From Hexactinellida sp. DTS-2022 (Eukaryota > Porifera > Hexactinellida), in assembly GCA_028753945.1 (NCBI GenBank), contig JAPNXP010000011.1:3472001-3536000 (forward strand): 64,000 nucleotides of DNA, in the 5' to 3' direction. Under the pieces are notes generated by a model. That model saw only the letters and a list, made by a program, of their open reading frames with translations. It ran no database searches and was not told where the DNA came from. Numbering within the stretch: the first letter of the stretch is position 1; each line of letters starts with the position of its first letter. This document shows, piece after piece, positions 22,033-54,199 of this stretch. The translations under genes and the position numbers were made by a program.

Positions 22033-23215
22033 TTACAGCATAGAGTCAGCCAGTAGAGGAACAGCATATTCAGAGCTTAACGGCTGTAGCGGTGATATCC
22101 ACACCTCTTCTACTTCGAACTCTTCTCCTTCCAGAGTTAGCTTCGTCATAGCTTTCCATCTATTGGAAAGAGAATATTTAATTATAATATTTTCAATAGA
22201 ACTCAGTTATAACCTACCTTGAGTTATAACGTACTTCGGCTTAATAGGTTATAATTGTCTTAAACAATTTTAAAAAGCAGTCTCTGTATTTCTATGTAGA
22301 GTAAACTCGGCTAGTACACACATCGGAAATATAGATTTTCCATTCTCGAGGGTGTAGTTATAACCGAGTTCTACTCTATTGTTATAGCAACAGTAGACAG
22401 ATAAATATTCCAGTTATTTCAAATTCTAGAGACAATTGTCAACACAAAATATGCACTCACTCTAATTCAGTAGTATATACTTTATTCCTCTTCATCTTTA
22501 GTAGGCAGATACAAATTACAAGCAGTATGCCCACCACTATAAATACAGCTATGATAACTGCTATGGCAATAGCTGCTATTTCCGCTGGGGTTAGAGACTG
22601 ACTGCTGAAATGTGAACACGGCCAGTCCGGCTCACAGATACACTCGAACTTCCCGTCTTCCTTGATGTGGCAGCTGGCATTATATCTGCATGGCTGTGAT
22701 ATGCACGTGTTGGGCGCGCTGCATCTTCTCAGTGCCCATTCTTCAGTACACTCGCAGGTGTACTCATCTGTGAAGTCACTCTCTGTCTGAATGCCATAGC
22801 ATTCAGGATCATCAGCTGGTCCCTATTGGAAATAGGTGCTATTGACAGCTATTCAATCAATAATTAGTACAGTTGGTCTCATTTAATTAATTTATAGATA
22901 TTAAATTAAATTATTTCGCAAACAGTAATAATTCACAATTATAATTTCTCGCGGATCTCAACACGTACCTTACAAGTAGAATTATGAAGACAAGGTCTGA
23001 ACCTTATAGATATCGAGAATACGTGAGCTAGTGAGTAAGCGCCTGAACTGTCTTGAGCAACTATTCCAAGTTGGTCTTCTCCATAGTAATCTGCATATGC
23101 GGTGTATTGGAGATACAGCCCGATACCTGAGGCTCGGTACTTGGCTGGAATAAGTGATTTCTCTGAAGAAGTTAGGTTTCTCAGTACCAGCTCACAGTGT
23201 GAACAGTTCAGGTAT
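22033..23215 (-). CDS. Giant gene 3' exons: EGF, membrane helix, cytoplasmic tail
   Basis: Exons 22969-23215, 22461-22822 and 22033-22159. The first finishes the beta domain (YLNCSHC...PCLHNSTCK). The second has EGF-type cysteine spacing (YTCECTEEW, then CISQPCRYNASC and FECICEPDWPC). A hydrophobic helix of about 25 residues follows (AAIAIAVIIAVFIVVGILL), then the stop-transfer KMKRNK. The tail of about 50 residues is acidic and has no recognised signalling motif. The stop TAA is at 22033-22035; an AATAAA on the minus strand at 21806-21811 is a possible poly(A) signal. Confidence 0.85.
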
Positions 23216-29200: not shown

Positions 29201-32200
29201 GCTTTATAGTCGGCCGAAATAAAGCATGTTCAGAGTAGACCTCTGCGCGGGGGGTTAAAGAACGCGGGTTTCGGGACCCGCGGATTCTTGCAGGTCAAAG
29301 GATCTAAATATTTTTGCGGGGCGGGTGGGTGGGGGTCCGAGATTCTACTTGCGGGTCAGTGCCGGTTGGTGCAAGTGTTCTTGCTAAGTCTCTTGGAGGG
29401 GAAGTCCCCCCTATTGTAACAATGTACCCTCTTCAGTGCCTAAACAAACTTAATGATCAATATTACCTCAAGATGGCAGTAGTGTTGCGATCGAAAGAGT
29501 TTTATCGTATAATTATTCCGTAATCTCATATAATTAACTGAGAAATCGCTGTTTTAATATAGCCCAAAAACGGACTGTTCTTGCGGGGCGGGTGCGGGAC
29601 CCGCATACGACCCGCGCAGAGGTCCAAATCTGCAGGGGGGTCCATTTCTGACAAAACAACCCTCGCAGAGGTCTGATAAAGAAACATCAAAGAAATGTAC
29701 ATAAATGTTATAGAAAGGGGGGTCCATTTCTGCAGGGGGGTCCATTTCTGCCAAGCAAAGTAAGATTTGTCAGAAATGGACCCCCCGGTCCAAATCTGCA
29801 GGGGGGTCCATTTCTGACAAAACAGGACTCGTAGTCTTTCCAATCAATTATGGACAAACATCCAAACACACAACAATTCCGCTACGTAGATAGATAGATA
29901 GATATATTTGCGATACTATAATTGTACTCTATGGGTATTATGTGCGTATTAAGCCGCTGGCGGTGGGGTAAAGGTATAAATAGAAATTAATTTCACTTTC
30001 AATTGAAAATCAATTAACTTTAACTTTCAATTTCACATTCCTACCCAGCCGAGGGTGTTAAACAACGAAATTTCTAAGCAAAAGGTTATTTTGTGATATT
30101 CTTTTGACCATTGAGCGAAATGCATTCGCAATATTAAATATTTTCCATTTATAAATGGGAAATTAAATTCCCATGTTCAGAAGAGGAACAAAACTGTGTT
30201 TCTCAAACGATCACAATCTGATCAATCAGTCGGTATAAGTTTAACATACATTAGCTTATTTTGGGCCAAGCCAACCTTGTGGGCCTAAGTCGCCCCAGTT
30301 CACGCTATGTACCTTGGAGTAAAAACAATTACAATTTCTTCACTGTAAACTCAATTGAATGAAATATAAACAAATCAGGAATGATGTTTCTAAAATGTTG
30401 AGTATCGTAATTGCTATTACAAGTAATAACACAATACCCTCAGTTCTATTTTAATTTGACTGGGCATGGCCTACTTAATATACGGCTAGATATGTCACCG
30501 AGAAGGCCATAAAACGAGAAGGCCAGTTTCTAATTTTCATTTTAGGATAAACTATGCCTCCTATTGTTGTTATTTGGGTTGTATATGGGGTAATCAACCA
30601 TTGCGAGTCCATTAGAACCACTTTTGAGAATCTCAGATTTGTGGTTAAGCTGCTTAGGCGCAATTTAATGATGACGGTAACAATTTATGGTAAAATGAAA
30701 AAAAATTCAAATATCATAAATTTCAGTTTCTTCCTATTTTCTAATAATTTTATAATAGGAATACTAATATAGGGATATATTTCATACCCCAAAGACTACT
30801 AAATCACAAAATGGCGACATTTAAAAAAAATTTAAAATTATTAAGCAACCACATGCTAAAATACAAGTAGTATCCGAATTAAAACTTACTATTTTTGTAC
30901 ATAAAACGTTTATAATTGCTGGTTTATATATATTCATTCTCATTATATATTCGGAAAATGTATTCTAAGTATATTAGCAAATTATTTTCATTTTCTCGCA
31001 GTTCTTTAGACTCGAATTTTACATTTTTTGTATATTTGTGGTGTCATCATTAAATGGCGCCTAAACAGCTTAACCACAAATCTGAGATTCTCAAAAGTGG
31101 TTCTAATGAACTCGCAATGGTTGATTACCCCATATACAACCCAAATAACAACAATAGGAGGCATAGTTTATCCTAAAATGAAAATTTGAAACTGGCCTTC
31201 TCGTTTTATGGCCTTCTCGGTGACATATCTAGCCGTATATTAAGTAGGCCATGGACTGGGTTAATTAAGTAGCTCACAATGCATGACATACCTGATATGA
31301 ACCTGATCTCCGCTATCCACGTCATAACTGTAGAAACTGAATTCGAAACTAGCAACTGAAGTATTATAGTCTCTGTAGAGTGTGAATGAGGTTTCACTCC
31401 CTCTACCCAAGAGTAGAACTGGACTATCGTTAACTGCTAGAATCTCTATTCTGAACTCATTAGTTGCATTCAATGGACTGCCGAGCAATGCAGGTGTTCC
31501 TAAAGAGATTTATAAGAATGTTAAGGGTTTATATTTATCATCCAAATGGTGGTTCCAAATACAACAAAGTTGTTTTTAATTCCAATGCAATATCACCTGT
31601 TTCTGTAAGTCTGTATTTAACTGTAACATTGCCAAAGCATTCCGTGCAAGGAGTGAAATAGAATATATTATCGGTAATCCCAGTAACCAGAGGCTGTGTA
31701 AATAGAACAGAAGTGAGATAGGACTCTACAGAGTCATCTTGAGCGTCTGAGTAGAATAACGGGTGCTGAATAGTGCCTGAGCCCTCAGTAACACTGATAC
31801 AGGGAATTCTGTCCGGGACAGGAGCTGTGTCTATGAATTGTGTATTCGCTAAGACTAAGATAAATTGCCAGGGTTTGTTGCAGCGCTGTAAGAAACACAG
31901 GAATTAATTATCATACACATACACATAGCAAAATTAAAATTTCAAATTAGTATAGTACAAAAGGTGTATTCAAAGTTCTGGGATTTAAGACTCTTTTATT
32001 GTGTTTGGCAAAAATCCCTTTCTTCGGCAAAGTGTATTGGGGAAAGGCAGGTGCTTTGACTAGGCAAGTGTTTTAAAAGCTCTGAACTTAAGAACAATTT
32101 TTATATCTGTGCACCTTGATTACCCGAACTGTCCAATCATCCGAACACCCTTAGTCAGTCCCAATGTTGTTGCATAAAGCAGTTCACTTAAATTAGATTA

Positions 32201-35200
32201 TACGAACTTGTTTGACTGGTCCCAAGTCCAAACAAATTCGGATCAAACTGTAATTTTCAAGATCGGAAAATAATTTGATTAAATTTAAGATACCGTATTG
32301 CTTCGAAATAAGCACCCATGCACTTTTTAATTTCGTAGACCAAATTTATCCTAAACTTTTTTGAAAAATCATTAATAATAATACGTTGTCATGTTTCTTA
32401 TTTTTTAAATCGAATTTAGTCTTTTGTTTTTCAACTGAAAACGAGCTAAATGTACCGTATTTCCCCATATAAGCGCCGGATGAATAAAAATGGCATTGAA
32501 ATTAGAAAATTAAAACACATTAGTTGATAAGTAAAGTGTAATTCCATTGATTTTGGCAACTTCGGTATGTATACTGTCTGTGAGAATCATTAGAATCGAC
32601 CTAAATTTAATATTTTGAAAATTGATTACTTACTTCATTTGTCTGTGCACAAGGACAGAAATAAGTGGTGAGTGCGTTGTCATCAATAGTATCCTCCATA
32701 GTGAAATTACAGCTGCTCCGAGTTGCGATCCATGTCTGTTGATTTGGGTTCCAAGCAGTTAGAATTGGTTTTGTGCCTTCTTCGATCTTAGAAGGATTGA
32801 AATTTATTTCCACTTTTATCCAAGATGGAAAGTCTGCACCTCCAATGGGACTTATGAAGAAGGCGGGACCAAGGAAATACTGAACTCGCGAAAACAAGAA
32901 GCGATCAACACTCTGAAGAGTACTGCTAGGATCTACAATGAAAGGCGTGTATGGGGATGTGGAAGGAGCCGTAATGATGTCATATTTTATCTTCATATCG
33001 GCAAGAGAGAGGTCTCCAATAACAAATCCAGAGCTAGCCTTAATGTCTTCAGAAAAATATACCTTGCAGTTAGTTGGGTAGAGTTGTAGAGGTATAAAAC
33101 TATCCGTAGATTGAGAGGAGTACTCTCGATTACCTTTTTCAATAGACAGTGAGAAAGCCTGGTTAGTTAAGTATATCGAATACTGATCGCTCTCTCTGTA
33201 AAAAGTGACTGAGTGAGTGCCTGCAGATTTACATTTTGGTTGAATAGCACAGAGAGTCAAAGTCTGAAAGAATATCCTTCCTGGCTCTATTTGCAGTATT
33301 ATATCACCCTTAACGTATCTGTAATTAGTTCTGTTAGCTAATTTAGCCAATTCAGTTATATTAGAGACAAAGAAAGAAGTGTTACCAATCATATCCGTCT
33401 CATTAATGCGAATAGAGAAACTGCTGTTGAAATTAATCTCGAACAGTGGAATGATGTCCTCTTTGTTTGGCTCAGTGCCTACACTCCAGAAAAGAGTTTG
33501 ATTCATGACAGTGTAGTTCTCTTCATAACGAGTTTGGTAGAATCCTGTCCAACTCAGACCGAGTGAAGTTAGCTGAGAAGAAACAGATGTATTCTGCAGT
33601 CGTGTGCTGAGTGTTGTTGAGAACATAGGCTGTAATTCTGCCCTAGAGACATCAGGCTCTTTGTTAAGTATTCTAACTCCATCGCTCTTCAGTATTGTAT
33701 TCAGACCAGCTCCATTGGTAGCCCTGACTACAACATAATACTTGAGGAATGGATTGAGTGAGAGATTTGTAATATTAACAGTTGTATCAGTCCCAACTGA
33801 GTTAAATTGGAGAGAGGTGATGTCATCAATATTAAAAGAGTATGCGATTTCATAGCCAAATATATCACTCCTGGTATCTACACACAAGTATCTAACTGCT
33901 AGGGAACTTGTACTGTATTGAACAGTGGTGTTAACCAACTCATTGCTCCTGAGGTCTCTCTGTATGTGTTCAATGAGAGTGCAGTTGGGAGGAGTTGGGT
34001 CCAGCTGGATACCCTCGGAGTACCCATACGCTATGTGACCAGCAGCTGTGTAGCCCCTCACCTTCATGTAGTAGACATAAGGAACGAAAGTGAGATTGTG
34101 TAGGTATAGCTGATCCTCGGGTATGCCAGAGGTATTGTAGTTGTATGGAGTACATGTAGCGTTTGTCTCGTTAAAAGGATGAGTGCAGCCAGACAGAAGA
34201 TCGAGATCTGTAGCCTCAAAGCTAATGTAATAAACAGAAGAACTGCAAGAGGAGTTACAAGTTGTAGTTTCTGATCTACAGTATTCTTTACAAGGAATGC
34301 AAGGAAACGAAATTGGTTGATACTCCCGTCCAGCTGCGTGTGTAACATCTGTAGAGCCAAAGCTCAAACCTACGCCAACTTCAAAATAAAAAAACGGAGC
34401 TTTCTCGCTATAGAATGGACTGCCGTATTTACAAACGCGACTACTGTCTACTGGAAGGATTACATCAGTGTAGAATGCTGAGGTCGTGGGAGGGAAGAAA
34501 GGATCCGAGAAAGGCTCTACTCTTCCGTTATAATTACGGACATGAAGAACGAAGTATAGATTGGATCCGAATTGCGGTAAGCCCACAAGATTCCCTAGGA
34601 ATTGATCATCTACCTTCAGTAGAAGAGACCAAATATACTCAACAACTGTTTTAGGAGTGAAAGTGGATTTCTTTTCTAACTTAAAGTGGTAGGTATGATA
34701 GTCCGTAGTTGGATTGAACTCTAATGTTACCCACACATGCGCCATTTCTCCTGACTCCTTGCCTCTATACCAGAGCAAGGCTCTTGCTGGCGTAGAGTTT
34801 GTGGGAGGGTGAAGTTGGAAACCAAATGCTTTGTAACGTTTGGGGTTAGGATTAAGAGGAGGGAAATATACACATGTGCTGTGCATGGTTGTTGAAGGAT
34901 CTAAGTTAGTTTGATTAGTATTGCTTGTGTTACCTGACGTGTAGAGTATTTCATAGTCTTGTACCATAGAAGCAGGCCCATCCCATATCAGTATAGATGT
35001 AACAGCCTTGAAGTTAGGAGCAGCTTTGATGCGTACACTGATTTCGTTGAAGCTAACAACTGAGAATTCAGTGACTGCTGCGCCAGATAGCATCCTATTA
35101 TGCTGAATGTCTCTAGCCATTGAGATCTCAAGGAAAGCGTGCTCAGTGTTGAACCGAGCTTGCTTGGGGGAATAAGCTAGCGTTCTGCCGGTAGGATTGT

Positions 35201-38200: not shown

Positions 38201-41200
38201 TCCACAATTGTGTTTTCCCAAATACTGAATTACTCCCTATTAATACTCTAGATTATCTAAACTTTTTGTTAAAAGTACTTAATCTTGTTAATAATTGGAC
38301 TTTTGAAGGTACCCTATTCCATAAATATACGAAATTATTCTTAGTTAAGTAGTTTAAAACATTAAATACGGTTAGATTAATATTATCTTACCTTTTCCAA
38401 AACTGTTTATAGTTGCTTTCTGGTCGTCAGTAGAACAAGCAGTAATCGCTCTCACCTCCGTATATATATTATCTCCTAACTCCAAAGGTAAAAGCGCTTG
38501 TGCGACCCCAGACCCATCAGCTCCAACCACAACCCCAGCAGTAGTGAACTCCTGAATCTGATCCTCTGCAAAGCTAGTCCCCAAAGACCACTCGTAGTAC
38601 TGTATGCCACACAGTTCACTCGAGAACCCATCGAACTTGAGAGTCACTGTATCTCTCTCAGTCTGGAACTCCCCATTGCTTCTAACCCCTGAGTGTCCCA
38701 CCGTTACTACTCCCGCTACGTTAGCGCGTAGAACCTTAATCTTAGTTGATACCTTAGGAGCAGAAAACAGCCCAGCTCCATTCTTTGCTTTAACCGTTAC
38801 AAAGTAAAACTCCTTTGCAATCTCGTAGAGCTGCAACTGAACTGGTATAACCACATTGTTGGAAGCTGAGTACTCTTTGAAGTCAGATATGTCCGTGCCG
38901 CCTGGAGATGTGCCTACTGCTGCTGCGAATCCTGCTATATCGCTCTCAGAATCAATGGCTAACCACTGCACTGGTATTCCCCCAGTGTTACCGATCTCCA
39001 CCTACATATTAATTATAATAAGAGCAATGTTAAATAAACGAGATAACTTACGTTAGTTATTAATTATGTTATAGTTTTGTTCATACGTTTGAAGTAGAAA
39101 ACAAAATTTACAATAATTGGCGACACAAATTCGAAGCAGTGCGTTATTTCCTGTATACTAAATTGATTTAATTTAAATTTTTGGGGAAGTGGTATTCCAG
39201 ACAGGCCATGAAATGATCAAATATAGTGTATTATTGCACAGTATTACTATTACAGTAGAAATTTGGCAATCCGGCATTTTTCCCTATCCAAACGGTTGAC
39301 GGATTAGACAGGTTATACTGTGATACATAGTGCGACTAAGCATAAAAGTACGCCTAAGTTACAACAAAACTAAAATACTAGTTAATAAATAGACAAAAGG
39401 AGAAATAATATATGTTTGAAATATTTTGTGTCTATTTCAAAGCTCACAACGACAATAGAGTGAACTCCCGTTTTAGTCGGATAGAACGAAATAACTGTTT
39501 ATAACGAAATGGATATTTTCCCCCATAGCACTAAATGCAGTTATTATCCGTTAATAACAATATCCTGATATAACGAAGGAATTTACAGGTCCCAAGAACT
39601 TCGTTATAACGAGATTTAACTATATTTGCAATTAACATTTAAGAAATTATCGTGAGTCATAACCTACCGCATCCTCCGGTGTCTTTTCCTCAGACTCATC
39701 TCCATAAGTATCAATATGCACAAATATAATGTGAGGAGGTGTATTGTCTGGAATGATCCCACTGCTCGTGAACACAATAGACAGATTGGCTCTGTTAACA
39801 GGCGTAACACTAACTGTGTACAGAGTTCCGATGCTCAGTTTAGTACTGAGACTCCAGCAGGTGAGCACGCCAGACTCGCCTATCTCTTGAGGCCGAATAG
39901 ACTTGTACGGAGCATTTTCTGGGTAGAACTGGGAAGTTGAGCCCAGATGCCTGGCGAATACTGTGAGTCTGTATTCTAAGATACCAGATTCCGTGTCTAT
40001 CATTATCCAAGAGGCTGATAGGGTCTTGATCGATACTTGGTATGATTCGTCTATTCGGGGTGACGGGCCATCGTAAAGCTGAACTACTTTCGGAGGCGTT
40101 AGGTCAACCAAAAATCCTACAAAAAGAAAACAAAAATTAAACTAAACAAGGTGGTAAGACAACTTTTTATTTGTAAATTATTTTTTAATTTGCAAACACT
40201 ACATGTAATGTCATATTTGACTATGAAATGTTTCTCCCAAAACAGTGTATTCAAATCTTACTTTTTTATTAAATAATTGTCCTAGTTTAGCTACAAGTAT
40301 ACGTATACTATATTATATTTATCACATGCAGTTAATTTATACATGTGATGCTAATAAGTTGACATTATCATTATTCTATCGAAGATAATAACCAACTAAA
40401 ATAAAGAAAAATAATTTTTTTTAAGATAAGCATACCTTGACTGGTAACGTCGGTTGTTCTAGTCGCTCCATCCTGTCCTGTCACTGTTGTTCTCACATAG
40501 TCTCCGTGAGAGAATTCGAAATGTTTCCAGTTTATTCTTGTTTTTAAACCCACTGAAACTGAATCTTGTGTTATTCCAAATTTAACCTAATCGAAGACAA
40601 CTGTAGGTTTACGGAATAATATAGATAGTCACTGTATATAAGTTATATTATAAATGCATAGACCATCGCTAATAAGTCCTGTTACATATACTACCAAAAA
40701 ATTTAAAATTTTGAGTTAAAAGAAAGATAATAATAACACGTAAAACCTCGCTAGTGCAAACACCAGGAGACTGTCAAATGCGTTCGCGCTTATCCGGAAT
40801 TCGTATTAACCGATGCCATTTGTATTAAAATGCTTTTAAGGGCACTGAAATAGTGTTTGCATTAACCGAAATTTCCTATTAACAGTGTTCATACTAACGA
40901 GTTTCTACTGTATGTACGTACACCTATGACACATTTCAAATGGGATAAAGAGCGACACGCTGTTAGGATTAACAAGGGTGTACTGCAATTCAATTATTAA
41001 TAGAAGAGTTCGTACTTAATAATAACTTGTCACTCTTAACTAAGCAATTAAGACATATCATACTGCTTACGTTATCTGGTGGTATGTAGGGTGGCTTTAT
41101 TGGAATGACAGTGCTGTTAGATGGGACTGGACAAGTCTGCTCGAGGTTTGGGAAGCTACTAGTGGGTAAGTATTTCGAGACCTGTGCCGTGTATATGGTA

Positions 41201-44200
41201 ACATTGTATTGCGCTATGCCAGATTCCGGGTCCGAGAAGTTACCCCACACAGCCTGCACTGACTTGGGATTGGAAGTGTAGTTTAGATTCTTATCAACGG
41301 ATAACCCGTCCTTAACAAACCCGCCAATTGGGTTCGTGAGATCCACGAGAACGCCGTTAGAAGAGACAGACGTGTTCCTGGGATTATCAGTGTCAGAGTT
41401 GAATGCTATTACAGTGGAGTAGTACAAGGTATCGTGTTTGAGCTGGAGACCTCCTCGACAGATGGAATGTTGATCAGGAGGGAGGTTGGCTGTGAAAGCG
41501 ACAGTATTGGATAGCCCCGGTGCTGTCCCTGCGCCCCATCTGTAGGCGGATATTCCCGACTGAGGGTCGTAGAAGTTCCGCCACTTTGCACACAGGACAG
41601 AGTCTGAAGCTTGGTATTCCCAGTTAGAATTCCCCGGCCCGTCTCCGTCCATCACAATGCCAGGCGCAGGCGGACTCCTGTCTACAACTATGGGGCGAGG
41701 AGCATAGGACGTGCTCGTCAGATTAACTAAGAAGATAAATACAGTAAAACCTCCAAAAGTGAACACCTCCAAGAAATGAACAACTCCAAAATATGAACAC
41801 TTTTTCTCGGGCCCAAATTTCCCCATTACTTTATACCAGTGGTTCCCAATGGACCACTTAGGGGTCCACGGATGACTGTAGGAGGTCCACGGTTGAAAAA
41901 GGTTGGGAATCGCTGCTTTAGACACACAATATGAAAAATCATGAAAGTGAACACCTCTCAAAAGTGAACGTTTTGGCTGGTCCCCAGGGTGTTCACTTTC
42001 TGAATGTTTTACTGTACGTAGTTATAAATAGTACATACTGGTATTTAGTAGGATTTTAAAAAATAGGTTTGAATAAATGTGTAAGTTCATATTTTGACAA
42101 TGCTTATCTTAGATTCTTAGTTAGATAAATAATATAATAAATTATAGAATACTATTACTAGTTGTACTATTATAATATTACCATTGTTAGTTACTTTAAT
42201 ACGAATAAACGCTCTCGTTCCATCTGGTACATTTAACTGGTAATTGATTGTAGCAGTTCTGTTCTTGAATATAGGAGTCCATACGAGAATAGAAATATCA
42301 CTACTGGTTAGACCAGCTCCCAACTCAACACTCTGCAATCCTGATAGGTTGTCCCTATCAAGTACAACACCAGTTAATAAGGAACTATTAATCAGTTCAA
42401 TAATTATTACGTTGTTGCCTTAGTACTCCATCAAGCGCGTCCTACTCCTGGAAAATGTAGGACCTCAATAGCGCCTCTTTTAATATTGTTTTTGAGAAAA
42501 TCAAGGATTCAGGTAAATTTCCGATGGACATTTGCACATAAATTTTTGAAACAAAGGGATAGAAGTTATCACGAAGAGATATGAAAAGTGCATCATTGTA
42601 CAAGTTATACTCAAAGCTAGTTAGTACGCTCCGTTGTACACGTTCCAAATTCCACATCCTTAATTTATTATTAGAGTAATAGCTTGCAATTTAAAAAACG
42701 TAGACAAGACAATGAGGCAGTAAATTAATGATTATTTTGTTTCTAAAAAGCACCAGAGATACATTAATAATTTGATAGATGTATATCTGAGAGAAAATTT
42801 AAAGACTAAAATCAATCAATAAATTTTATACTATATCAATTACCAAGCTTCGTAGTAGAATGTAGATATATTTGTATTCTCGTTATAAGCAATTAGTGTA
42901 ACATTATAGATGATGGGAGGTGTCGTATCAATAATATAAGGCGTGGAGTGACACAGAGTGATAACTCCAGAACTTCCAAAGATAACTTGATTCAGTCCCT
43001 GTACAGTCATATAGTATATTCCGTCTTCAAAATGCTGCAAAACTCTCCCTTGATTGATGTCAGGGAGTCGGGATGTGGAGTCTGCATTCGGATCTCTCGG
43101 GGAGAGAGCCCCCTCTTTACAAGCCTCATATCCCATATACCAAGCATAAGCGTACATTCCTAGTGATATATCAGTATTAACCAACTGAAATATACAAATA
43201 GAACTAAACGTCTATTGATATTGTAAATCTATATTATTAAATCTCGATTGTTGTGTGTTTGTCCGGATTGTATTAAAGTGATGGGGGACTAGAAACCGCA
43301 TTTATAATTGAGATAGAGACTAAGTTTCAAATGTTATAATAGGTAAACTAATGTTATAATTGGTAAAGAAGTATGCTGATTTCGAATTTCGCGTTTATAA
43401 ATTTATAATATGAATATTTATTGTTGTTGTTTACAAAATAGGTAACAAATTAATGAAATTCTAAATCAACCTAGAAGTTAGCTTTCAACGGGTATTATAG
43501 GTAAACATGTATGCTGAACACGAATTTCGCGTTTATAAATTTATAATATGAATATTTGTTGTTGTTGTTTACACAAAATAAGTAAACAAATTAATGAAAC
43601 TCAAAATCAACCTAGAAGTTAGCTTTCAACGGGTATTATAGGTATACAAGTATGCTGAACACGAATTTCGCGTTTATAAATGTATAATATGAAAAACAAG
43701 TTAAACATGGAAATCTTATAAAGGGATATTATAACGTCCCTTTCCACCATTTTCAAAGGTGGAAAGGGTGAAGAGTAAGGCCGCACAGCGATCGTTAACT
43801 TGAGTTGCGTAGCACCGATCCGTCGCAAAGCGACCGAGACCGAAGGGTTCGTTGAATAAATGGGGAAATTTAGGAAAGCAGATTCATATTTTTGATAATA
43901 TTGTTAATTTACACAATAATAATAATTATAGGCTATTAATAAATTATTGCTGCTTAAAATCTTTGTTTCATTATTTGAATTTTTTGCCGTAAGTACCAGT
44001 ATTATAATAATTTTAATTTAACTCACCACTTTGGAAATCATGGAACCCTTGGAATGTGACACTCACAAACGAGCTCAGTCTGCTATACTTAATATCTTGA
44101 TTTACTGAAGGGCCATTGTACACGCACTCAGACCCAGGGCCGTCCTGAATTATTCTATGATATGCCAGTGGAGTCACGTACTCAGGAGGTCCGCATCTCT

Positions 44201-47200
44201 GATTGAATGCAGCAGTGCATCTGTCGTATCTTGTTTCATTCAGAGAAGCATTCACAACCAACCCTGGCTCTGGCGGTGTAAAGTCTATTAGCATTCCTGG
44301 AGAGCTGAGATAGCTCTCATAGAGGAGCTCATTGACAATATACAGGTTCAGAAAGTAGAGTCTATTGTGCACCAATGGAAGATCTTGGTACTTGAAACTC
44401 GCATGATTGCCAACACCTCGTTTCTCATAGTAACTGTACTGGAGGTCATATTCGAATTCTATATCAGAATCAGCACCAATAGCATTAAGCAGTTCACAAA
44501 CACGATGAACGTCTGCATAGTTGAATGAAAAACATTTGGTTGGGAAGGAAAGGCACTCTGATGCACACTCTTGTAGATTCGTTAAAACGGATTCCTTGAA
44601 TGGGGTAACACCAAGCCGCTTGTTTGAAATGGTAATGAAATTCTGTAGTGCATTAGTTTCAGTACTTTCAAGTTCCAACTGTGCAAAGTCGAAAGCAGTG
44701 AAAGCTACCGTCTGGTCTCCATATCGACCCGGTCCATAACCGATTGCTTGAAATTGAATTTTAAGATTTGTATCGTCAATAATAGTAGCTTCTCCTATCA
44801 GCTTAGATGGGTGGCTGGAGTATATATAGGTGACGAAGTCCACCCTGCCATTCGGTGGCGTCATGTCGTACGTACTGAGACTGCACTCTGTGGAAGAAGA
44901 AACTCCCTGAGAGTTAGAGCCAGAAGCTGTCCAATATAGAGGAATATTGGATGTTAAATTCCGCGCAATCAGCACAGTATTGCCATTCATCCTGTCATTA
45001 CTCACGAGATCTTCGCCTCCCTTATATGTACCAACTGAGTAGGTTAGTTTAACTTGACTCTTGTCATCAGCTACATTGATCTGTAGGATGAATGCGGGAT
45101 TTGTGTAGTCTCTGCCTGCTACCTGTGTCACGGTGCATGGAGTAGCTACGGCACGTCGAGTCACGTAATGATCTTCTGAATACGAGAGTGCACGTATACT
45201 TCTCGACTGTTCAGTAACAGGAGAGAACAGGGGAGGAGAATTGTCTTTTTTCTCGTTTGATTTGTCCAGAAGGTTTCTTACAATCGCTGGTGAATTCCAA
45301 TGAAAAATTGTTATGCTAATTATTGTTTTTGAGAAGTGTGTAAACCATAAATTGATTGTGATCTTAAGATATACGTGTAGAGAAATGCCTAAAGGTATAA
45401 TCCTCAAGTCAACTCGGATTCTTAATGCTAGTGGAAACTTTTTGAACCCAACAGAAGGCTGTATTGGTAGATGTGTATTCAGGATTGTTCCTGTCAGGCT
45501 CACTCCAGCTTCTGCGATGAAAATAGAAATTGCTGCACTCCCACTCAATACTAATCCCACATTTGGAGTTGCCTCAACACTGGCGGCCATAGATATAAAA
45601 CATAATTTAGCGCCTAGACTGAAACCATATAGTCCATCAAGACTGAGTGTGAAATGTAACGGGACCCAGCCTATAATGATGTATTTATCTATTCTGAAGA
45701 AATTTCGATGAAATTGTATTCCATAAGATCCCGATATACAAACATCAAATTTTGTTGGGAAATCGGTATCACCAGTGAGTATAAGACTCTTTCCACTGAT
45801 TATTACATTGAGTAATTCATTTAGGAACACATTCCTGAGGTCTTGCATTAGTTGATTGAGTCTGTTGGTAGAATTACTGGCTGAGCCTGTATCTCCAAAA
45901 TCCTTAATATAAGTCACAAACTCACCTATGGTCATATTTAGGAAATCAGGTATTTTGATACCACAGGGTGTAACGTCGCTTGAAACGGTTAATTCTCTCC
46001 TTCTCCTCTTTGCAGTACAGTTAAAGGGACTCGGAATCTGGAGACCTGCTCCAGCAAGTAATTCTAAACTGAAGAAACATTGCGAATAGTCTTCTGAAGA
46101 TCCATCTATGGGACACAGGTATGCTTTAATGTATAGATATATATTCAGATCTTTCCGGGTTACTTTAACATCCAAATTAACAGTGGCAATTCCTAATAAC
46201 TCAGCTGATTCATGAACGATGTTTAACACTGATCCTCCGTAAATATTCGGTAATTCAATTACCTTCTCTAAATTTTGGAATTTAAGAGTAATGGAAGGAG
46301 CACATGGATCTAATGTGATAGAAAATGTAACTGAGTATTTGAAGAAGTCTAACTTAAGAGCAGCAGCACATCGCAAGGATAGGCAGTCCTCTGAAATAAC
46401 ACACCAACGGTTCTCTGGAATGGCATGCTGGAGATTGGGACATAAATCCTTAGGTAATGCAATAAGCTGAGCAATGAGCTGTTCTCTCTCGCCCTGGAAA
46501 GGCATTCCTCTTATTTTCAGAGCATTTTGAATTGACTCAAGATCAAGGAGCGATGGATCCATCAACTTCTCATTGGAGCAATCTAGCGCATTCTGAAGAT
46601 ACTCAATTGTATTTTCTACAGAGTTTATTACCTCCCTAACCTCATTACTGGATAATTTCTTCAGTACTTCCAATATAAAACCAACTTTAATTGTATTGAC
46701 TGAAAAGTTAAATTCATTCCCACCTTCAGTAACTACAATATGAAATCCTCCTTTCTCTGTAGATTCGCTTGAATACTTTTTCTCCTGATCTTTCGTAAAG
46801 TATCGCCCAAGATTAGTACCGATTGGACGGTTTGTAGGCCCTCTGGGTCCATTTGATGAAGCTTTAGGTAATAGATCATTCCTTACACCAGGATCTTCTG
46901 AAATAGCATGTTTGTACTTAGGTTTATATGCAGAATTATTGGGAGGCTCATTATTATTATCTGGAAAGTTTGGATCTTTGCAATAATCCGCGTTTCCACA
47001 TTCCCCACGGCCCTTATCCTTCATTGTATCGGGCTTCCCTATAATAGTCCCCGACTTAATCACTTTACCTTTCACGACTAAACCGTAGTCATTGCAATCT
47101 TGAATCCATTTCGGAATTTCCAATAACCGTGGTTGCAGGAATGGGAACGGGTTCGTTGTGTAACCGCTTGACTTGCTCATCATCGTAAAGTGTATAAAGT

Positions 47201-50200
47201 TAGGTTGGCATTCGAATTCATTTCCTGTCACTGTTCCAATCATATCTCCTCCCTGTACATTTACACCTGAACTTGTAATGTTATCCAATAGCTGAACATT
47301 GTGTATCATAATTACATATTTACTGAAAGAACCAGACGGGTAGATTAGCACTTGGTTATCTGGAACTCTCAAATAAAGCCCGCTTGTTGGAGCTACCAAG
47401 CCATCTCCTTCCTCCATTTCCAGTTGAATGCCATTCTTATAAATATTGGGGTCGCCAGATGCTGTGGGATAATATCCACACTCACATTTCGTTTCTTTAC
47501 AGCTGTCTCCTCCCCGAATCTGTCGCGGAAAATTGCGGTTAAATTTAGGCCCGAAAAGTCTTTCAATTAAATTTTTCACCTCTTCATATTTCTCCCTTAA
47601 AATTTCGTATGCTTTTATTGCAGTCTTGATAACGTTAACAGCAGAAGTGTATGCTTTAATAAAAGGTTCCACTATCTTTAATAGTGGAGCAAGTGGTTCA
47701 ATAAACTTTTCCAGTGCTTTTTTTAAATCACCATAAGCTTTTAACCTTAGTATGGTCAAATTTAGGCCAGTAGCATGTTCAAAGGAAGATATATTTCGTA
47801 TTTCTGAGAACTCCTTAGCTTCTTTGATAATGAGATCTTTCGCTTCAATAGTTGTGTTGTAAATCTCTTTCAATCTATTCACTAAGTCCATCCACCCCCT
47901 AATGTGAGCTCCCTGGAACTTCGTAGCATTTAATAAGACATCCTTACAGTCAATGACTGCGTCAAATGCAGACCTTAATTGGAATATTGAAACTATCACA
48001 TCTCTAATAGAGATTAGTGGATTCCTGAAAAAGTGCACAATTGACTTAGCAATTGTTTGAATAGCAGTTTTGATGGTCTCCCCAACCCAAGGTAGTGTGA
48101 CAGTAACACAGTCGGATATTTCCTGATAGAACATTAACACATCACTTCTCACATCATTATACAGTGATTTCACTTCATCGATTAACGTGATACCTTTCTG
48201 AATAAAAGGTAGTTCCTTGAGTTGTTCGAGTATTCTACGCAGCGTTGGTGATACGACGAGATTCTCAATTATAAACGGGAGCTCCGAAACAGCTTCTACA
48301 AGAGTATGGAAGATATACCTTATATTAATGTGTTCACCCAATACTTCTCTGAAACTTGTAATTGCATCCTTAATCGCTTTCACAACAGCACCAATCGTCT
48401 TATCATAAATGTGTGTTAGATCACTAAACGAATTTATCCCCAACTCCTGGAGAATGTTCAAGTTATATGAAATATGTCCCTTAAGGCATACCCTAGCGCG
48501 AAACACTTCAAAATGAGTATCAACATAACCAAGGTTGACAACAAAGTATGCTTCATCATGAATATCAATCAAGAACCTTCCACTGAGAGGTTTGATATTC
48601 AGATCAATTATGTTTTCTACTATGAGTCCCATTGAAGCTCCAAAATTATTAGTTCCTATATCTTTCTTCCACATTAAACTTGGAGTTTGTAAATGGAATG
48701 AAAGTGCAGCAAAGATGTTAAATCTTCTAATTCTACGTTTACTCGCTCCAGCCGGAGACTGCTCAGAATTAGTATAGTTATAAAATTCGTGCAAAACCTG
48801 GGACATTTCATCTGCCCTCGGATGTAACTGGTATTGAACAGTAGCTTCATATCTAACTACCTCTGCTTCGTCAATCAGTGCCGCTGATAGTATTGTTTCC
48901 GCTGCCTATGGGAGTACACCTGTTTTAAGGTTTGTAGTTATATATTGAGTAGTGTGGAAACACAACTCTGTAAATTACTCATACGTATATTCTGTCTATT
49001 AATTAAGACGTGGTTTGCGAGAATCATAAATGCATTATTAGGAGTAATTTTCAAACCATTTAATTAACAAGATAACTTAAAGATTCAATATTTACATGAA
49101 TCGAAAATAACGAACATTCAATACTTAAATTATTACTACACAATTTTGGTTGATAATTTGATTGGTTACTAAATCTTGGAGGCTATGGAGGCTATAGCTA
49201 TTTGAAAACGCAGATAAGCAATAAGAGGAGACATAATACAAGTATGAATATCTACGTTACTGGTTACTCCAAGCCATAATTATAATAATTAATTACATAT
49301 TTCTTATAGAAGAACTATTTACTAATCAATTTTTTAATTTTGAAAATGAATGATTATACCTCATAAGTGTGATACGCTCTCAATGAATGAACAGCTGATC
49401 TTCTCAGTAGAGTAGGAGCGTGTTTGGACTCTATGAAACCTTTGAGAAGATCAAAACTCTTCTCATGCCCCGCATTTCCCAAAGAGTTAATCAGATTAGA
49501 TTGTCTCATCATTATTACATCATCAGAGGTGAGTTTAGGTGAATCGTCTCGCTTGTATCTGTAACAATTTACTTAATTATGAAGGCTCAGATTTTATTAG
49601 GAATGTAAGAAAATATATGAATTAATATATTAAACTCAAGACAAATTTCGAATTAACGTTAATTGATATGAAATATTATTAATTAAGTGTATCCGTGACC
49701 TTCGATATATAAGGCCTGAGTGCTAAGCGAAAATTTGTGTACCATGGATTACTTAAAGTGCATTGAAAAATGGAGAATTGTTCTTTATCCCAATAATTAG
49801 CAATGATAGAGCTGAAAAGTGTATTATAACTATATAGGAATATGGTACCCAGGTATACATAGCACTCTCCAGAATTGTGATATGTCATCATCTGATGACG
49901 TAATGGTAATTTTGGTTGCGAATTTTCTTGTTTTTCTAGCATACTTTTAACATAGTTAAACGCGTTATAAATGTTCAAAATTGGAACATGGTTATACCCA
50001 TAACTAGTTGAAAAAATATATCGAAATTATAAATGGAATGTTGACACATTCCTCGGTTGCCATGGAAATGTATATTTCCTAAAATGTGTCATAACTCAAA
50101 AACTATGAATGTTATGTAAACTAGGCTGGTACTGATCTGTCCGGAATAGGTAACTTCCTATTCATTGATAATACATTTTATATGCCTAACTTCAATCATC

Positions 50201-52224
50201 TTTGAGATAGTGAGTCATTACCTAATAATGAATTAAGTGTTAATTATGTCATGATCTCAAAAGTTATTGAAGTTAGGCATATAAAATGTATTATCAATGA
50301 ATAGGAAGTTACCTATTCCGGACAGATCAGTACCAGCCTAGTTTACATAACATTCATAGTTTTTGAGTTATGACACATTTTAGGAAATATACATTTCCAT
50401 GGCAACCGAGGAATGTGTCAACATTCCATTTATAATTTCGATATATTTTTTTCAACTAGTTATGGGTATAACCATGTTCCAATTTTGAACATTTATAACG
50501 CGTTTAACTATGTTAAAAGTATGCTAGAAAAACAAGATAATTCGCAACCAAAATTACCATTACGTCATCAGATGATGACATATCACAATTCTGGAGAGTG
50601 CTATGTATACCTGGGTACCATATTCCTATATAGTTATAATACACTTTTCAGCTCTATCATTGCTAATTATTGGGATAAAGAACAATTCTCCATTTTTCAA
50701 TGCACTTTAAGTAATCCATGGTTCAAACCAGCACTCAGGCCTTATATATCGAAGGTCACGGTGTATCATAATATTAGAATGTAACTGACCTATTATGATC
50801 GTGCGGTAGAGTCATTCTGTGCAGTTTAGATATAATCCTATCAGACAGCAGAGGGTCTGAGTCTCTCAGAGAAGCGGTCATTGAGCCCAGAGCTAGGACT
50901 GCCATGTCGGAGAGAGTATGGTTACGGAGCTGCTTTGGCAATAGTTCGGGATTAAATGCTAACTTATCCATCGTATCAACTGCGAAAAGAGATGGTCTCT
51001 TCGTAGCGGAGAAGTGTGGTAATATAAAGTATGCCATTTCTCTTTCAATACAACTTGCATTTATGAATGTCACCAGCACAAACTGACAAGAGGCTCTGCT
51101 ACACATACCCAGTGTATCTATCATAGTTAGTATATTGGAGTGTTTGTGAATTAATGGACAAGACAGGTACTCGGCTGATAGCTGAACAATATCTTGCTCT
51201 CTCATCATTTCAACGATGTTAACTATCTTCCGTATTGTCTTAACACATTCTGTGTTTGTGTTGGGGTAGCAATTCTCAGTCAGAGATAGGTTAGACTGGA
51301 CCTGTGTAGAGCGTGGTATAATCAATGCTAGTACCAATTAATAATAATAGTAATTATTATTTTCGGAATTTAAAGTAGTTCAAAATGTAACCACAAATAG
51401 GATAGATCTATGGGATTAATATTTTATAACTATCCAAATTATCAAACAAAAATATCATTTTCTTGAAAGTTGGTAGTCACTGGTTAGGTTAGCCACTAGA
51501 ATATGTAGGGCTGAAAGGAATATACCGAATATTCGAATATTCGTTCGAAATGAATGAACGAATATTCGTTTGAATGAATATTAGATTGAAACGGATATTC
51601 GTTGACTACTTTCGGACAACAACACAACTTTTGTTTAGATTGGAGAGATCCTAAATATAGATTCCTACCTAAACTAGCCTTTATAATAACTAACTTGTGT
51701 TTATACGCTTTGTAACTATGATTAAACTATTGTAACATTAACAAATAAATATTCCACTGTATTTAGAGTTTTGAATTGATTTAATGCTTCTAGTCATCAA
51801 AACGAACGAATATTCGAATATTCGTTCGTTTAGAAAAGGTTCGTTTGTTACATTTCAAATATTCGTATCAGCCCTAAAAATATGTACTTTGAATTCGTTA
51901 ATCCAAATACTTTAATTAGATCAGATTTCCAACATGCTTTCTTTGTATCACATGGTGGTACCAGTTGGTTATCTCACTGAATTACCTGTGATAAAGCAGT
52001 TTTGTATTTAATTGGGTCTCTAACAGTTCGCTGTGCTATAATGCTATCCAGAATAAGACCAGATGGCTCTACAATCGAAGAAGGATCGAAAGTATACTTT
52101 TCCAATAACATAATGTTGGACAGCCCAGTAGCCTTTATAGGAGGAGGTTCTTCCACTGGGTTTGATTCAGGAGTTGAATGGGAGATCTCAGCTATGTCCT
52201 CAACACGGACGAATTTTATGTGAC
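22033..52224 (-). CDS. Giant LLTP-FN3-EGF type I membrane protein (5' incomplete)
   Basis: Sixteen exons: 51986-52224, 50790-51301, 49360-49558, 44027-48905, 42844-43159, 42182-42384, 41071-41726, 40436-40586, 39668-40116, 38392-39001, 32634-37834, 31597-31885, 31292-31499, 22969-23215, 22461-22822 and 22033-22159. Every junction is GT-AG and every phase agrees, giving about 4,882 residues from the first secure exon. Order (residue numbers from that exon): LLTP helical module (about 80-350), furin-type sites, M23/LECT2-like fold, SAP-like motif, beta-rich region, PAN domain, about sixteen FN3-like repeats, a cadherin-like part, EGF modules, one membrane helix and a 50-residue tail. LLTPs such as MTP and vitellogenin bind lipid; the rest looks like an adhesion or uptake receptor. 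Its role is unknown to me. The true N-terminus and signal peptide were not found. Confidence 0.85.
23360..23610. repeat. GC-hairpin dispersed repeat, copy B
   Basis: Matches copy A (11078-11290): GCGCTTCGCTTGCTA, TCGCTTCGCGAC, a CACACACCA/TGGTGTGT hairpin, TTTAACAATGTGAAATTTTA and TGGTGTGACCAACGTGTCCG. It lies in the 8-kb intron of the giant gene. Directly after it, at 23605-23690, are short inverted motifs GACGAAAATGGTCC and GGACCATTTTCGTC. Confidence 0.6.
23818..24500 (+). repeat. GC-hairpin head / AAAC-tail repeat family, copy 2
   Basis: The longest copy. The head has GAGCCCTTCGGTCTCGG and GGCCGCTACGCGGCC. Three AT-rich units of about 135 bp each carry a GTGTTCAGCATACTT-like start and AACAACAATAAATATTCATA. 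The end is TAATCCGGACAAAC, an AAAC run and AACAATCGAG. A 147-bp MITE (24166-24312) interrupts the third unit. A further GC-hairpin head begins straight after the tail (24505-24630), so heads and tails are sometimes arranged in tandem. Confidence 0.7.
24166..24312. mobile_element. CAGGGGCGGTGGAAG MITE, 5-bp TSD
   Basis: The ends are CAGGGGCGGTGGAAGC and GCTTCCGCCTGCCCTG (imperfect). It is flanked by AATAT on both sides (24161-24165 and 24313-24317). Internal GGCCTGACCACTTT motifs occur in both halves. It is inserted in copy 2 of the AAAC-tail family, so it is younger than that copy. Confidence 0.75.
24631..25636. repeat. Intronic DNA with duplicated GACGTCA block
   Basis: Intron of the giant gene. 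Two diverged direct copies of a block are present: about 25215-25425, and 25490-25636 continuing at 29825. The shared order is TGACGTCATAATTC, CAATARATYGTTGTC, TTTCAGCTTTCTRGGACTCG and TCTGGACAAACA. The second copy is the site into which the Ginger-type element inserted. A CACACACGCACACAC microsatellite is at about 25410-25432. Confidence 0.55.
25971..26050. repeat. Pogo-like MITE remnant inside Ginger
   Basis: Begins CAGTGTAACCTCGATTATCC after a TA and ends near GTCCGGATAACTGAGGTTA, lacking the last bases of the right terminus. It belongs to the family intact at 57017-57191. Confidence 0.55.
26407..29151 (+). CDS. Ginger-type transposase with C-terminal USP-like peptidase domain
   Basis: Single 914-codon frame; the alternative start at 26473 (M-D-P-S-E-Y) would drop 22 residues and may be the real one. 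Residues 90-135 are an H-H-C-C zinc module. The DDE core has D159 (GMDLTGP), D217 (CDNGTEF) and E253 (GLVESAHK), with the D-35-E spacing of retroviral-type integrases. The GPY/F module (KWLGPYRIAK) is at about residue 415. A linker of about 230 residues follows. Residues about 645-914 look like a USP/USPL1-type cysteine peptidase: C660 in NTCPVDNF, two CxxC zinc pairs (CWSC, CLKC), H858 in SGLHF and D873 in YTYDG, which forms a plausible triad. It would act in the nucleus on its own TIRs. The frame is intact, so recent activity is possible. The peptidase call is inference. Confidence 0.8.
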   Translation: MLKLNARKSIHFTLTFSSTFKTMDPSEYELILSYLMTDSYPHGFTKDQKRNLRKRASKYLAINDKLVKLSEGKQLLVIKTDDIPSMLREIHDNVGHQCARYSYNIAKARYFWPGMLKQIRFYVDNCIRCQKNQPTLKATSIPLQPLPVITKVWFRVGMDLTGPLVNSEGYKYILTMMDHFTKWIETRPLRSKEAKEVAKGIFSIYCRQGAPVQIICDNGTEFTNKISKALHDAYDCKLIFSAPYHPQTNGLVESAHKAVKRCLVKSLDEKNENWAHYLDEITFSLNIRPRDTTGFSAFELMHGSRKPRLPTEAENLAMLYPDVAIEESQSLGNDTREDTTTELIQSMQAAQANDHVVAGELLTRSKELMKRRHDKKLNPITFNNLDKTDEVLIENVYQKKKGGKFHDKWLGPYRIAKLNRNTVKIYRNKSIQRVKRSKVKLLKRLTPINSADQQATRSQSLSTEIETSTIEYLQAEDTPSIGAEETVFATISPPRHTRQDTIDKLNSMKSLIINSIKTNIPLSDLHRELHIRRDMKFKDLFNWRTDRYPSYYAEYAQEDQLETTYEMSNLLAQWYLDSFEIKIPEYQYTGEDFDFSTRWTGESMDYSTNVLLPVVQQLLATSKASANSDNTLATPASLRLEDSCVTWGGQFEGIELVNTCPVDNFITLLNLHSHKVSSALRLANVSPSQRLQTMLSHITSREFDELRNWLAPQLGVRLINFRFDFLGYEGAMVQLLINLSICSDRYEVIFQCWSCSYQSEKKLNLLSVLTFKENCQKTIDFQIKTAFSCLKCRDPNAKLESLSQKFVQVPPLIILEVGHVNNVSLIRETDIENQINITHDQDELHYSLLGYTVHSGLHFTMRTKLKDEWYTYDGIERPKVKQVDSSPNMPSLGQINCIVYVLSYGTTPNEQFSI
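29239..29623. mobile_element. GC-rich TIR element nested in Ginger 3' end
   Basis: The ends are ACCTCTGCGCGGG and CCCGCGCAGAGGT, with GGGACCCGC and GCGGGTCCCG motifs inside. It resembles non-autonomous hAT elements with CGCGGGTC-rich ends, but no target duplication is clear. Immediately right (29621-29657) is an extra copy of the outermost bases of the Ginger terminus. Confidence 0.5.
30465..31253. mobile_element. Long-TIR foldback element with 7-bp TSD (copy Z)
   Basis: A 789-bp element with ends CATGGCCTACTTAATATACG and its exact inverse, flanked by GACTGGG on both sides (30458-30464 and 31254-31260). The inverted arms are about 230 bp and include AACCATTGCGAGTCC and TTAACCACAAATC. The centre has an AAATCACAAAATGGCGAC block. 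Copy X (56232-57010) shares the arms and the centre; copy Y (57193-62633) shares only the outer end. Confidence 0.85.
31292..31885 (-). CDS. Giant gene, cadherin/CSPG-like exons
   Basis: Exons 31597-31885 (starts RCNKPWQF) and 31292-31499. The sequence VLANTQFIDTAPVPD...VTEGSG and later LAVNDSPVLLLG recalls the NDxPV and A-strand signatures of cadherin-like or CSPG4/FRAS-type repeats. The second exon ends ...GDQVHI with a split Arg codon completed 8 kb away at 23215. A foldback transposon begins about 40 bp inside that intron. Confidence 0.7.
31886..32633. other. Intron of giant gene with MITE fragments
   Basis: At 32098-32243 is a degenerate CGATTATCC-type pogo-like MITE (GATTACCCGAACTG ... 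TTCGGATCAAACTG). At 32289 and 32454 are left ends of the CCGTATT...AAGC family (see 18010-18194). No further coding sequence is seen. Confidence 0.5.
32634..37834 (-). CDS. Giant gene, 5.2-kb FN3-array exon
   Basis: A single 1,733-codon exon, entered from 38392 through an AC-starting split Asp codon and left at a GAA|GTAAGT donor. It carries about ten FN3-like beta-sandwich units marked by linkers such as IEIDTTPPILG, VEPLIPGVVYDG and IQLDPTPPN. A cysteine cluster IPCKEYCRSETTTCNSSCSS lies at about 34230-34300. Potential N-glycosylation sites (N-x-S/T) are very frequent, in keeping with an extracellular location. Near the C-terminal end is NFTMEDTIDDNALTTYFCPC. The uninterrupted repeat array in one large exon suggests expansion by internal duplication or intron loss. 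Confidence 0.8.
38392..43159 (-). CDS. Giant gene, six FN3-repeat exons
   Basis: Exons 42844-43159, 42182-42384, 41071-41726, 40436-40586, 39668-40116 and 38392-39001. Each FN3-like unit has a D-x-[ST]-P-P-x-x-G-x-V-x-DG entry, a D-x-E-SG[IL] turn and an N-x-A-G-L exit. Examples are VVDRSPPAPGIVMDG and LVDLTPPKVVQLYDG. The 42844 exon begins at the AG in ATCACTAG, which restores the SG-G turn across the intron. The 42182-42384 exon begins after TTAATAG, which keeps phase and places Cys where most repeats have Trp. TA-family MITEs occupy the introns at 39458-39620, 40737-40910 and 41752-42014. Confidence 0.75.
39458..39620. mobile_element. TTATAACGAA MITE, second copy
   Basis: TA-flanked and diverged from 16591-16766. 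It shares AACTCCCGTT at the left, GATATTTTCCCCCA, GCACTAAATGCA and GGAATTTACAGGTCCCAAG inside, and ACTTCGTTATAACGAG at the right. It lies in an intron of the giant gene. Confidence 0.65.
40737..40910. mobile_element. TA-family MITE in intron
   Basis: The right end AACGAGTTTCTACTG is followed by TA and mirrors a degraded left end GTAAAACCTCGCTAGTG. The interior contains GTTTGCATTAACCGAAATTTC. It resembles the CAGTARAAACYCG class of pogo/mariner-type MITEs. Confidence 0.5.
41752..42014. mobile_element. CAGTAAAACCTCC MITE containing a hAT MITE
   Basis: The ends are CAGTAAAACCTCCAAAAGTG and CACTTTCTGAATGTTTTACTG with TA on both sides. Repeated GTGAACACC motifs lie inside. A tiny hAT element (41837-41916) sits in the middle, so this element is older. 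It is 25 bp upstream of an FN3 exon acceptor. Confidence 0.75.
41837..41916. mobile_element. 80-bp hAT MITE, nested
   Basis: The ends CAGTGGTTCCCAA and TTGGGAATCGCTG are flanked by CTTTATAC and CTTTAGAC (7 of 8 identical). At 80 bp it is among the smallest recognisable copies in the window. Confidence 0.75.
43240..43860 (-). repeat. GC-hairpin head / AAAC-tail repeat family, copy 3
   Basis: Reverse orientation of copies 1 and 2. The tail side has CTCGATTGTTGTGTGTTTGTCCGG near 43245; three AT-rich units carry GTTTATAAATTTATAATATGAATATT; the head has CGTCGCAAAGCGACCGAGACCGAAGGG near 43850. It sits in the intron between the 4.9-kb exon and the first small FN3 exon. Confidence 0.7.
44027..48905 (-). 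CDS. Giant gene exon: LLTP end, M23-like, SAP-like, PAN, FN3
   Basis: A 4.9-kb exon. It opens with the end of the LLTP helices (AAETILSAALIDEAEVVRYE). A furin-type site SKRRIRR lies at about 48725. Long amphipathic helices follow, then a cysteine-rich M23/LECT2-like fold at about 47170-47490 (EGDGLVAPTSG...VQGGDMIGTV...IHF). The catalytic HxxxD and first His of HxH are replaced, so it is probably not a peptidase. A SAP-like motif with LKIRGMPFQGEREQLI is near 46450-46560. A second basic site AKRRRREL is at about 46000. A glycine/alanine-rich beta region follows, then a PAN/apple-like domain with four Cys (LQECASECLSFPTKCFSF) at about 44480-44620, and the first FN3 linkers (DMTPPNG, DFTPPEPG). 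No intron interrupts it. Confidence 0.8.
49360..52224 (-). CDS. LLTP (vitellogenin/MTP-type) helical exons of the giant gene
   Basis: Exons 51986-52224, 50790-51301 and 49360-49558. The decisive signatures are helical-repeat blocks seen in large lipid transfer proteins: NSLGNAGHEKSFDLLKGF followed by LLRRSAVHSLRAY, and earlier SDMAVLALGSM. Cysteine pairs occur at NCYPNTNTEC and GMCSRASC. The acceptor for the middle exon is CTACACAG at 51302-51309, chosen because it alone keeps phase 0 with the upstream donor. The intron between exons two and three is swollen by the 49694-50760 foldback. The LLTP beta-barrel that should precede this is not seen in the secure exons. Confidence 0.75.
49694..50760. 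mobile_element. Large foldback element, about 510-bp arms, 7-bp TSD
   Basis: The arms 49694-50205 and about 50265-50760 are near-identical inverted copies around a loop of about 60 bp. It is flanked by GTGTATC on both sides (49687-49693 and 50761-50767). Outer ends read CGTGACCTTCGATATATAAG. Only scattered differences separate the arms (for example at 49724-49740 versus 50721-50735), so it is young or kept similar by gene conversion. It has no coding gene; open frames in the arms are mirror copies. It occupies most of an intron of the giant gene that would otherwise be about 160 bp. Confidence 0.88.
51506..51876. mobile_element. TAGGGCTGAAA hAT-like MITE
   Basis: A 371-bp element with ends TAGGGCTGAAAGGAATA and TATCAGCCCTA. 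It is flanked by AGAATATG and AAAATATG (7 of 8). Internal CGAATATTCG palindromes and GTTCGTTT steps are shared with 20260-20708. It lies in an intron of the giant gene. Confidence 0.75.

Positions 52225-54163: not shown

Positions 54164-54199
<36 letters not shown>

Follow-up and report, generated by a model that had tools for sequence, protein, structure and literature searches.

A giant gene on the minus strand of the glass sponge Hexactinellida sp. DTS-2022 almost certainly encodes a single protein that combines a head of the large lipid transfer protein (LLTP) family, a long stalk and a membrane anchor. The gene was found in 64,000 nucleotides of contig JAPNXP010000011.1 (assembly GCA_028753945.1, 112.4 Mb; positions 3,472,001 to 3,536,000), which we refer to as the window. 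The spliced model has 20 exons and 5,096 codons without an internal stop. An earlier reading of the letters alone (the sequence-only reading) had proposed sixteen exons joined in phase between 22033 and 52224 that encode at least 4,880 residues. These exons are borne out as exons 5–20, which run from 52224-51986 to 22159-22033, have GT-AG borders and encode approximately 4,872 residues. The proposed start of the gene at 52224 was wrong, however, as exons 1–4 lie upstream of it and supply a signal-like start and the putative N-terminal beta-sheet that had been missing. Exons 1–3 are located outside the window, 1–3.2 kb past its right end (67180-67058, 65467-65202 and 65143-64967 in extended window coordinates). 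Junctions were chosen by a script among GT-AG and GC-AG candidates no more than 90 bases from the exon ends, with the reading frame kept open, and were ranked by splice-site form and by the match to two guide proteins of the glass sponge Oopsacas minuta. All 19 introns chosen are GT-AG; only the exon 13 acceptor had to be set manually, since both Oopsacas guide models have a gap there. Because two Oopsacas proteins are colinear with the model, exon by exon, at about 46–75% identity (67% for one protein across exon 8), and because 12 bilaterian proteins can be aligned over nearly the entire window protein, the model represents more than chance.

Its sequence identifies the head as an LLTP homolog. 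The sequence-only reading had placed positions 49360-51301 in this family on the basis of vitellogenin/MTP-type helices, and profile searches, which could have refuted this placement, instead recovered the same helices independently: for the 697 residues of the spliced head, the match to Vitellogenin_N has E 1.7e-11 and 43.8 bits against a cut-off of 24, over profile positions 299-555. The open frame of exon 6 by itself stays under that cut-off (E 1.8e-4, 20.7 bits). Vitellogenin_N was matched in all five family members scanned. When the sheet segments that precede the helical domain (the N-sheet) were scanned alone, seven of ten matched Vitellogenin_N (best E 1.4e-5; the window's segment is not specified among the seven), and no other family appeared in more than one of the ten. 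In the one member shown, this match begins at profile position 1.

The M23-like fold, the PAN domain, the FN3 repeats and the single membrane helix of the sequence-only reading were each found independently. The M23/LECT2-like domain does not keep the zinc motif H-x3-D / H-x-H, for which the sponge has N-G-I-Q and F-I-H. As only the last histidine is left, the domain is probably not a peptidase; its nearest known counterparts are LECT2 and the M23 peptidases. With a repeat profile grown from the family, 20 FN3-type units were detected, 17 of them at E<1e-3; among these 17, one (residues 1796-1884) precedes the PAN domain and another (2018-2081) is partial. Repeats are weak or not found around residues 3760-4230. 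Similar numbers of units occur in a hemichordate (P0094, 19), an abalone (P0058, 19) and a lancelet (P0083, 18). Eight full-length relatives searched at E 0.01 matched 13 Pfam families, including Vitellogenin_N (six relatives), PAN (six), fn3 (six), Big_9 (eight) and M23 (two), and no EGF family was among the matches. The EGF modules are the weakest of the proposed labels: a cysteine-rich EGF-like stretch is present in exon 19, but its best profile, EGF_MSP1_1, remains under the cut-off (E 1e-4, 22.6 bits against 27). Ten cysteines of this region are invariant in nine bilaterian relatives. The membrane helix is a 19-residue stretch with a mean hydropathy of 3.61, followed by a tail of approximately 55 residues, and residues 1-20, at the hydrophobic start of exon 1, resemble a signal peptide. 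The FN3 repeats and a single helix near the C-terminus are features of FN3-stalked type I membrane proteins. Two further labels were dropped. A SAP domain passes in Mytilus P0017 (4.4e-6), reaches E 0.031 in Oopsacas and is unlisted for the window exon at E 0.1; a general PDZ-binding tail was suggested by several bivalve tails that end in [I/V]-D-V or similar, which those of other groups do not. Behind its SAP-like motif, Mytilus P0017 also has, by eye, about six copies of a beta domain rich in cysteine; the window protein seems to have one copy.

Support for one gene encoding one chain comes from other phyla, in which complete proteins span the join between head and stalk. Residues 1-1000 of a Mya protein, used as a query, matched 184 proteins at E<=1e-10 among 7,992 candidates scored, of which the best 120 were listed. 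We collected 155 proteins, 82 of them with at least 3,000 residues. At least 21 of the 155 carry all ten modules in the same order, together with a hydrophobic stretch within 500 residues of the C-terminus; these come from bivalves, gastropods, the brachiopod Lingula, hemichordates and lancelets, two being unnamed, and nine of the 21 lay outside the set from which the module profiles were built. Ten more extend from the helical domain to the membrane helix without every module, and 13 combine the helical domain and FN3 repeats without the EGF-plus-helix end, although one of these (P0138) is in our view a match by chance. Among the 21, two are encoded on contigs that barely exceed the reading frame (5,016 amino acids on 15,340 bp and 5,194 amino acids on 16,595 bp) and are probably cDNA, as their size leads one to expect. 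In Oopsacas the annotation divides the protein between two genes, LOD99_10427 and LOD99_10426, whose contigs are equal in size (67,165). The break cuts through a single FN3 repeat, and the first model closes, judged from protein letters only, with what resembles a frame slip. The head half retrieved 14 close relatives (P0001-P0014; 52–92% identical), six of which share a contig with a stalk-half protein if contigs of equal size are taken as the same. Two full-size lancelet proteins (P0095 and P0102) lack the C-terminal hydrophobic helix and carry PF00059 and PF00084, which we take to be C-type lectin and sushi domains; they are possible secreted variants. An FN3 protein of 4,285 residues whose name assigns it to a Schekmanbacteria genome (P0089) is 28% identical to the Mya stalk over 89% of the query part.

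In a tree of 27 rows (residues about 541-1800; no outgroup, midpoint-rooted for drawing only), a fully supported branch sets off the six sponge rows, and the hemichordates group with the lancelets (100/98). The molluscs appear in two places, the short proteins of Mytilus and Haliotis being separate from the others; this split suggests that a gene was duplicated long ago. The tree fits descent of the family from the common ancestor of sponges and bilaterians. In relatives that were found through the stalk in Oscarella and in two corals or anemones (P0148, P0143 and P0149), no head module was seen, in a search that was not designed for heads there; this counts against the account favored below.

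A furin-type motif, R-x-[K/R]-R, stands directly behind the helical domain in all 14 aligned sequences, the number per whole protein being just three to six. The motif also clusters, less strongly, within the helical domain (10 of 14), ahead of the stalk (8 of 14, at about 1740-1775 in window residue numbering) and around residues 4650-4680 (8 of 14); the three motifs of the window protein are at 475, 599 and 1508. Insect apolipophorin offers a precedent, its precursor being cleaved behind the N-terminal module at a site of the furin type. Given this precedent and the conservation of the site in 14 of 14 sequences, the head is probably cut from the rest, and the mature protein would consist of two or more chains.

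To our knowledge, LLTPs are soluble carriers or, in one case, a transfer protein of the endoplasmic reticulum (ER) lumen. The large subunit of MTP (PDB 6I7S), a soluble ER-lumen protein, likewise has a Vitellogenin_N module followed by beta sheets. However, its chain has 863 residues, whereas in the giant protein approximately 890 residues of other domains lie between the two putative sheets, and a stalk and membrane helix are added. Insect apolipophorin II/I, vitellogenin and apoB share the Vitellogenin_N region; they are secreted, without an anchor or an FN3 stalk. Because the giant protein has a hydrophobic helix at residues 5021-5039, unlike the classical secreted LLTPs, we do not file it under the vitellogenin, apoB or apolipophorin subfamilies. 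A VWD domain is absent from the 13 Pfam families of the eight relatives at E 0.01, and none was found in the two longest window exons at E 0.1.

The head may also retain the lipid-binding sheets of an LLTP. In Foldseek, against 350,542 chains, a model of window residues 542-1741 has MTP at rank 1 (E 6.2e-4), bee vitellogenin at rank 6, lipovitellin at 22 and apoB100 at 27. For a model of the Mya relative P0020, apoB100 is at rank 1 and bee vitellogenin at rank 5, and in VIA the alignment of this model with MTP, across 268 residues, is the longest of the listed rows. Among long-strand segments scanned alone, the sole family matched was MTP_lip_bd, in two of seven members and under the cut-off (best E 0.0031). 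Residues 1588-1780 may thus be a second half of an MTP-type lipid sheet, displaced by inserts to a position approximately 900 residues downstream, which we treat as a lead rather than a result. Several observations count against these likenesses. The window's own long-strand segment has no MTP_lip_bd match, a PDB sequence search with this sheet found nothing at E up to 10, and none of five C-sheet segments scanned alone matched any Pfam family. PDB sequences searched with the head profile yielded alphaReps but, up to an E of 1, no LLTP, and with the N-sheet profile they yielded lipovitellin at a nonsignificant E of 0.75. Ranks 2–4 for P0020 are alphaRep HEAT proteins with E values nearly equal to that of apoB100; in VIA, 21 rows stand above MTP at similar Z, and plain HEAT proteins reach a Z similar to or above that of LLTPs. 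No LLTP is among the 50 VIA rows listed for the window model, which are filled by the M23 domain and helix bundles. The models themselves are poor overall (mean pLDDT 59.6 for the window and 50.0 for P0020), and the best TM-scores to LLTPs are low (0.08–0.17 by query). A toxin-like assignment of the helix bundle (residues 700-990) from ClyA rows was rejected, since long helices match many things at that Z.

The account that we favor, and hold to be somewhat better than an even bet as a whole, is that one membrane helix anchors the protein at the plasma membrane and that a stalk of about 17 FN3-type units, by our estimate some 60 nm long, would hold the LLTP head off the cell. A furin-type protease would probably cleave the precursor past the helical domain and ahead of the putative lipid sheets, as happens in insect apolipophorin, and the cut pieces would stay bound together. 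The parts fit a surface receptor with an LLTP tip, for which lipid or lipoprotein capture would be the simplest use, and the head would most likely bind or exchange lipid or lipoprotein at the cell surface; this lipid role, taken separately, we propose only tentatively. Adhesion without lipid is nearly as likely. The protein could be an adhesion or recognition receptor that kept the LLTP fold as a binding surface for proteins, cells or microbes, without lipid cargo, an alternative that we consider doubtful yet serious. The PAN, LECT2-like, FN3 and EGF-like modules all serve binding, and conservation in parts of the stalk exceeds that of the head, identity to the sponge protein being often 4–5.7 of 12 per 50-residue block (residues 1800-2900) against 1–3.1 in the first 500 residues. 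According to one report, vitellogenin fragments are binding proteins on the ascidian egg coat (PMC9265791). Against this alternative, the block past the helical domain (601-700) is also well conserved, at over 4 of 12, and the second sheet resembles the MTP lipid-binding domain, if under the cut-off.

It is improbable that the anchor and stalk merely hold a precursor until cleavage at furin-type sites releases the head to act as a soluble particle like an apolipoprotein. The motifs behind the helical domain, ahead of the stalk and near 4650-4680 would allow such a release, and three full-size Haliotis proteins (P0064, P0067 and P0068), like the two lancelet proteins, end without a hydrophobic helix and may be secreted. 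On the other hand, these helix-less relatives may be wrong gene models, and the window protein has no motif ahead of the stalk or near 4650, though Oopsacas has one ahead of the stalk. Cut LLTP pieces usually stay bound, as for apolipophorin, which further counts against a released carrier. There is little chance that the head is a HEAT-repeat solenoid that merely resembles LLTPs, as the HEAT_2 matches and the alphaReps at the top of the P0020 VIA list and the PDB profile search could imply: in one and the same head HEAT_2 scores 23.6 bits against the 43.8 of Vitellogenin_N, and the N-sheet ahead of the helical domain matches Vitellogenin_N as well. We reject the idea that neighboring genes for a secreted LLTP and an FN3 receptor were wrongly fused, since the break between the two annotated Oopsacas genes lies within an FN3 repeat and bilaterian proteins, including the two on short contigs, cross the join.

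Table 1. Features of the giant gene, in window coordinates.
Feature	Position	Strand	Basis
Exon 4, N-sheet region of LLTP module	63202..63308	-	tblastn of Oopsacas P0006; junctions
Exon 5, end of N-sheet region	51986..52224	-	Oopsacas-guided model
Exon 6, LLTP helical domain	50790..51301	-	Vitellogenin_N
Exon 7, LLTP helical domain (HEAT-like)	49360..49558	-	Vitellogenin_N, spliced head
Exon 8, 4,879 bases, helical domain end through PAN	44027..48905	-	Oopsacas-guided model
Furin-type site R-x-[K/R]-R, residues 599-602, between helical domain and next beta region	48723..48734	-	motif
C-sheet-like beta region, residues 606-700	48429..48713	-	strands in model, low confidence
Long-helix bundle, residues 700-990	47559..48431	-	structure model
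M23/LECT2-like domain, residues 994-1131, zinc ligands mostly lost in sponge	47136..47549	-	
Long-strand beta region, residues 1588-1780, possible MTP-type lipid-binding sheet	45189..45767	-	strands in model
PAN domain, residues 1964-2036	44421..44639	-	PAN_1 E 6.6e-7, above cut-off
FN3-type stalk, residues 2018-4451, exons 8-15	33339..44477	-	repeat profile; Pfam fn3 E 2.1e-12
Exon 15, 5,201 bases	32634..37834	-	Oopsacas-guided model
Exons 16-17 (31885-31597, 31499-31292), pre-membrane region	31292..31885	-	Oopsacas-guided model
Exon 18	22969..23215	-	Oopsacas-guided model
Exon 19, EGF-like pair and membrane helix (22564-22508, residues 5021-5039)	22461..22822	-	EGF profile, hydropathy
Exon 20, most of cytoplasmic tail and stop codon	22033..22159	-	spliced model

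Other reading frames lie within and beside the gene. The 11 kb intron 4 contains, on the same strand, an intronless actin frame (53305-54552; Pfam Actin 4.2e-136), which is either a nested gene or a retrocopy, and a retroelement polyprotein with protease, reverse transcriptase, RNase H and integrase (57923-61516, minus strand), presumably of the Gypsy type. An integrase-bearing frame is antisense to the gene inside intron 17 (26383-29148, plus strand). Downstream of the giant gene are HSP70 exons (16063-16536 and 18305-18727, minus strand), and a 621-codon open frame (4483-6345, plus strand) has no Pfam match at E 0.001. In the glass sponge A. vastus, 2,432 nested genes were counted (PMC10282587).

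The sequence-only reading had suggested that a membrane-anchored LLTP with an FN3 stalk would be a new architecture. This holds for print as far as searched: no description was found among open-licence papers, and in PMC10282587 and PMC10280926 the words vitellogenin, fibronectin and lipid transfer do not occur. It does not hold for this genome alone, given the bilaterian proteins described above, and the sequences are already public under the names JAG1, Delta-like protein 1, CRB-like and DNER-like. The lancelet JAG1 (P0083) and Mya CRB-like (P0037) proteins belong to the same family and have all ten modules, and their names ignore the LLTP head; the scallop Delta-like protein 1 and Mya DNER-like proteins also belong to it, although some models, such as DNER-like P0036, have no head. 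The finding corrects these misleading database names. A membrane-anchored LLTP encoded in one piece by glass sponges and, across the bilaterians, by molluscs, a brachiopod, hemichordates and lancelets would mean that a fixed LLTP was also present on the cell surface of early animals, and would bear on lipoprotein handling in sponges, animals without a circulation. With some reserve, we suggest that these proteins could form a family of animal LLTP receptors, so far undescribed, that are tethered to the membrane, processed by furin and inherited from the ancestor of sponges and bilaterians. In this reading, two half-sheets that flank the LECT2-like insert would form a lipid cavity, carried about 60 nm out as a fixed lipid-capture station beside the circulating lipoproteins.
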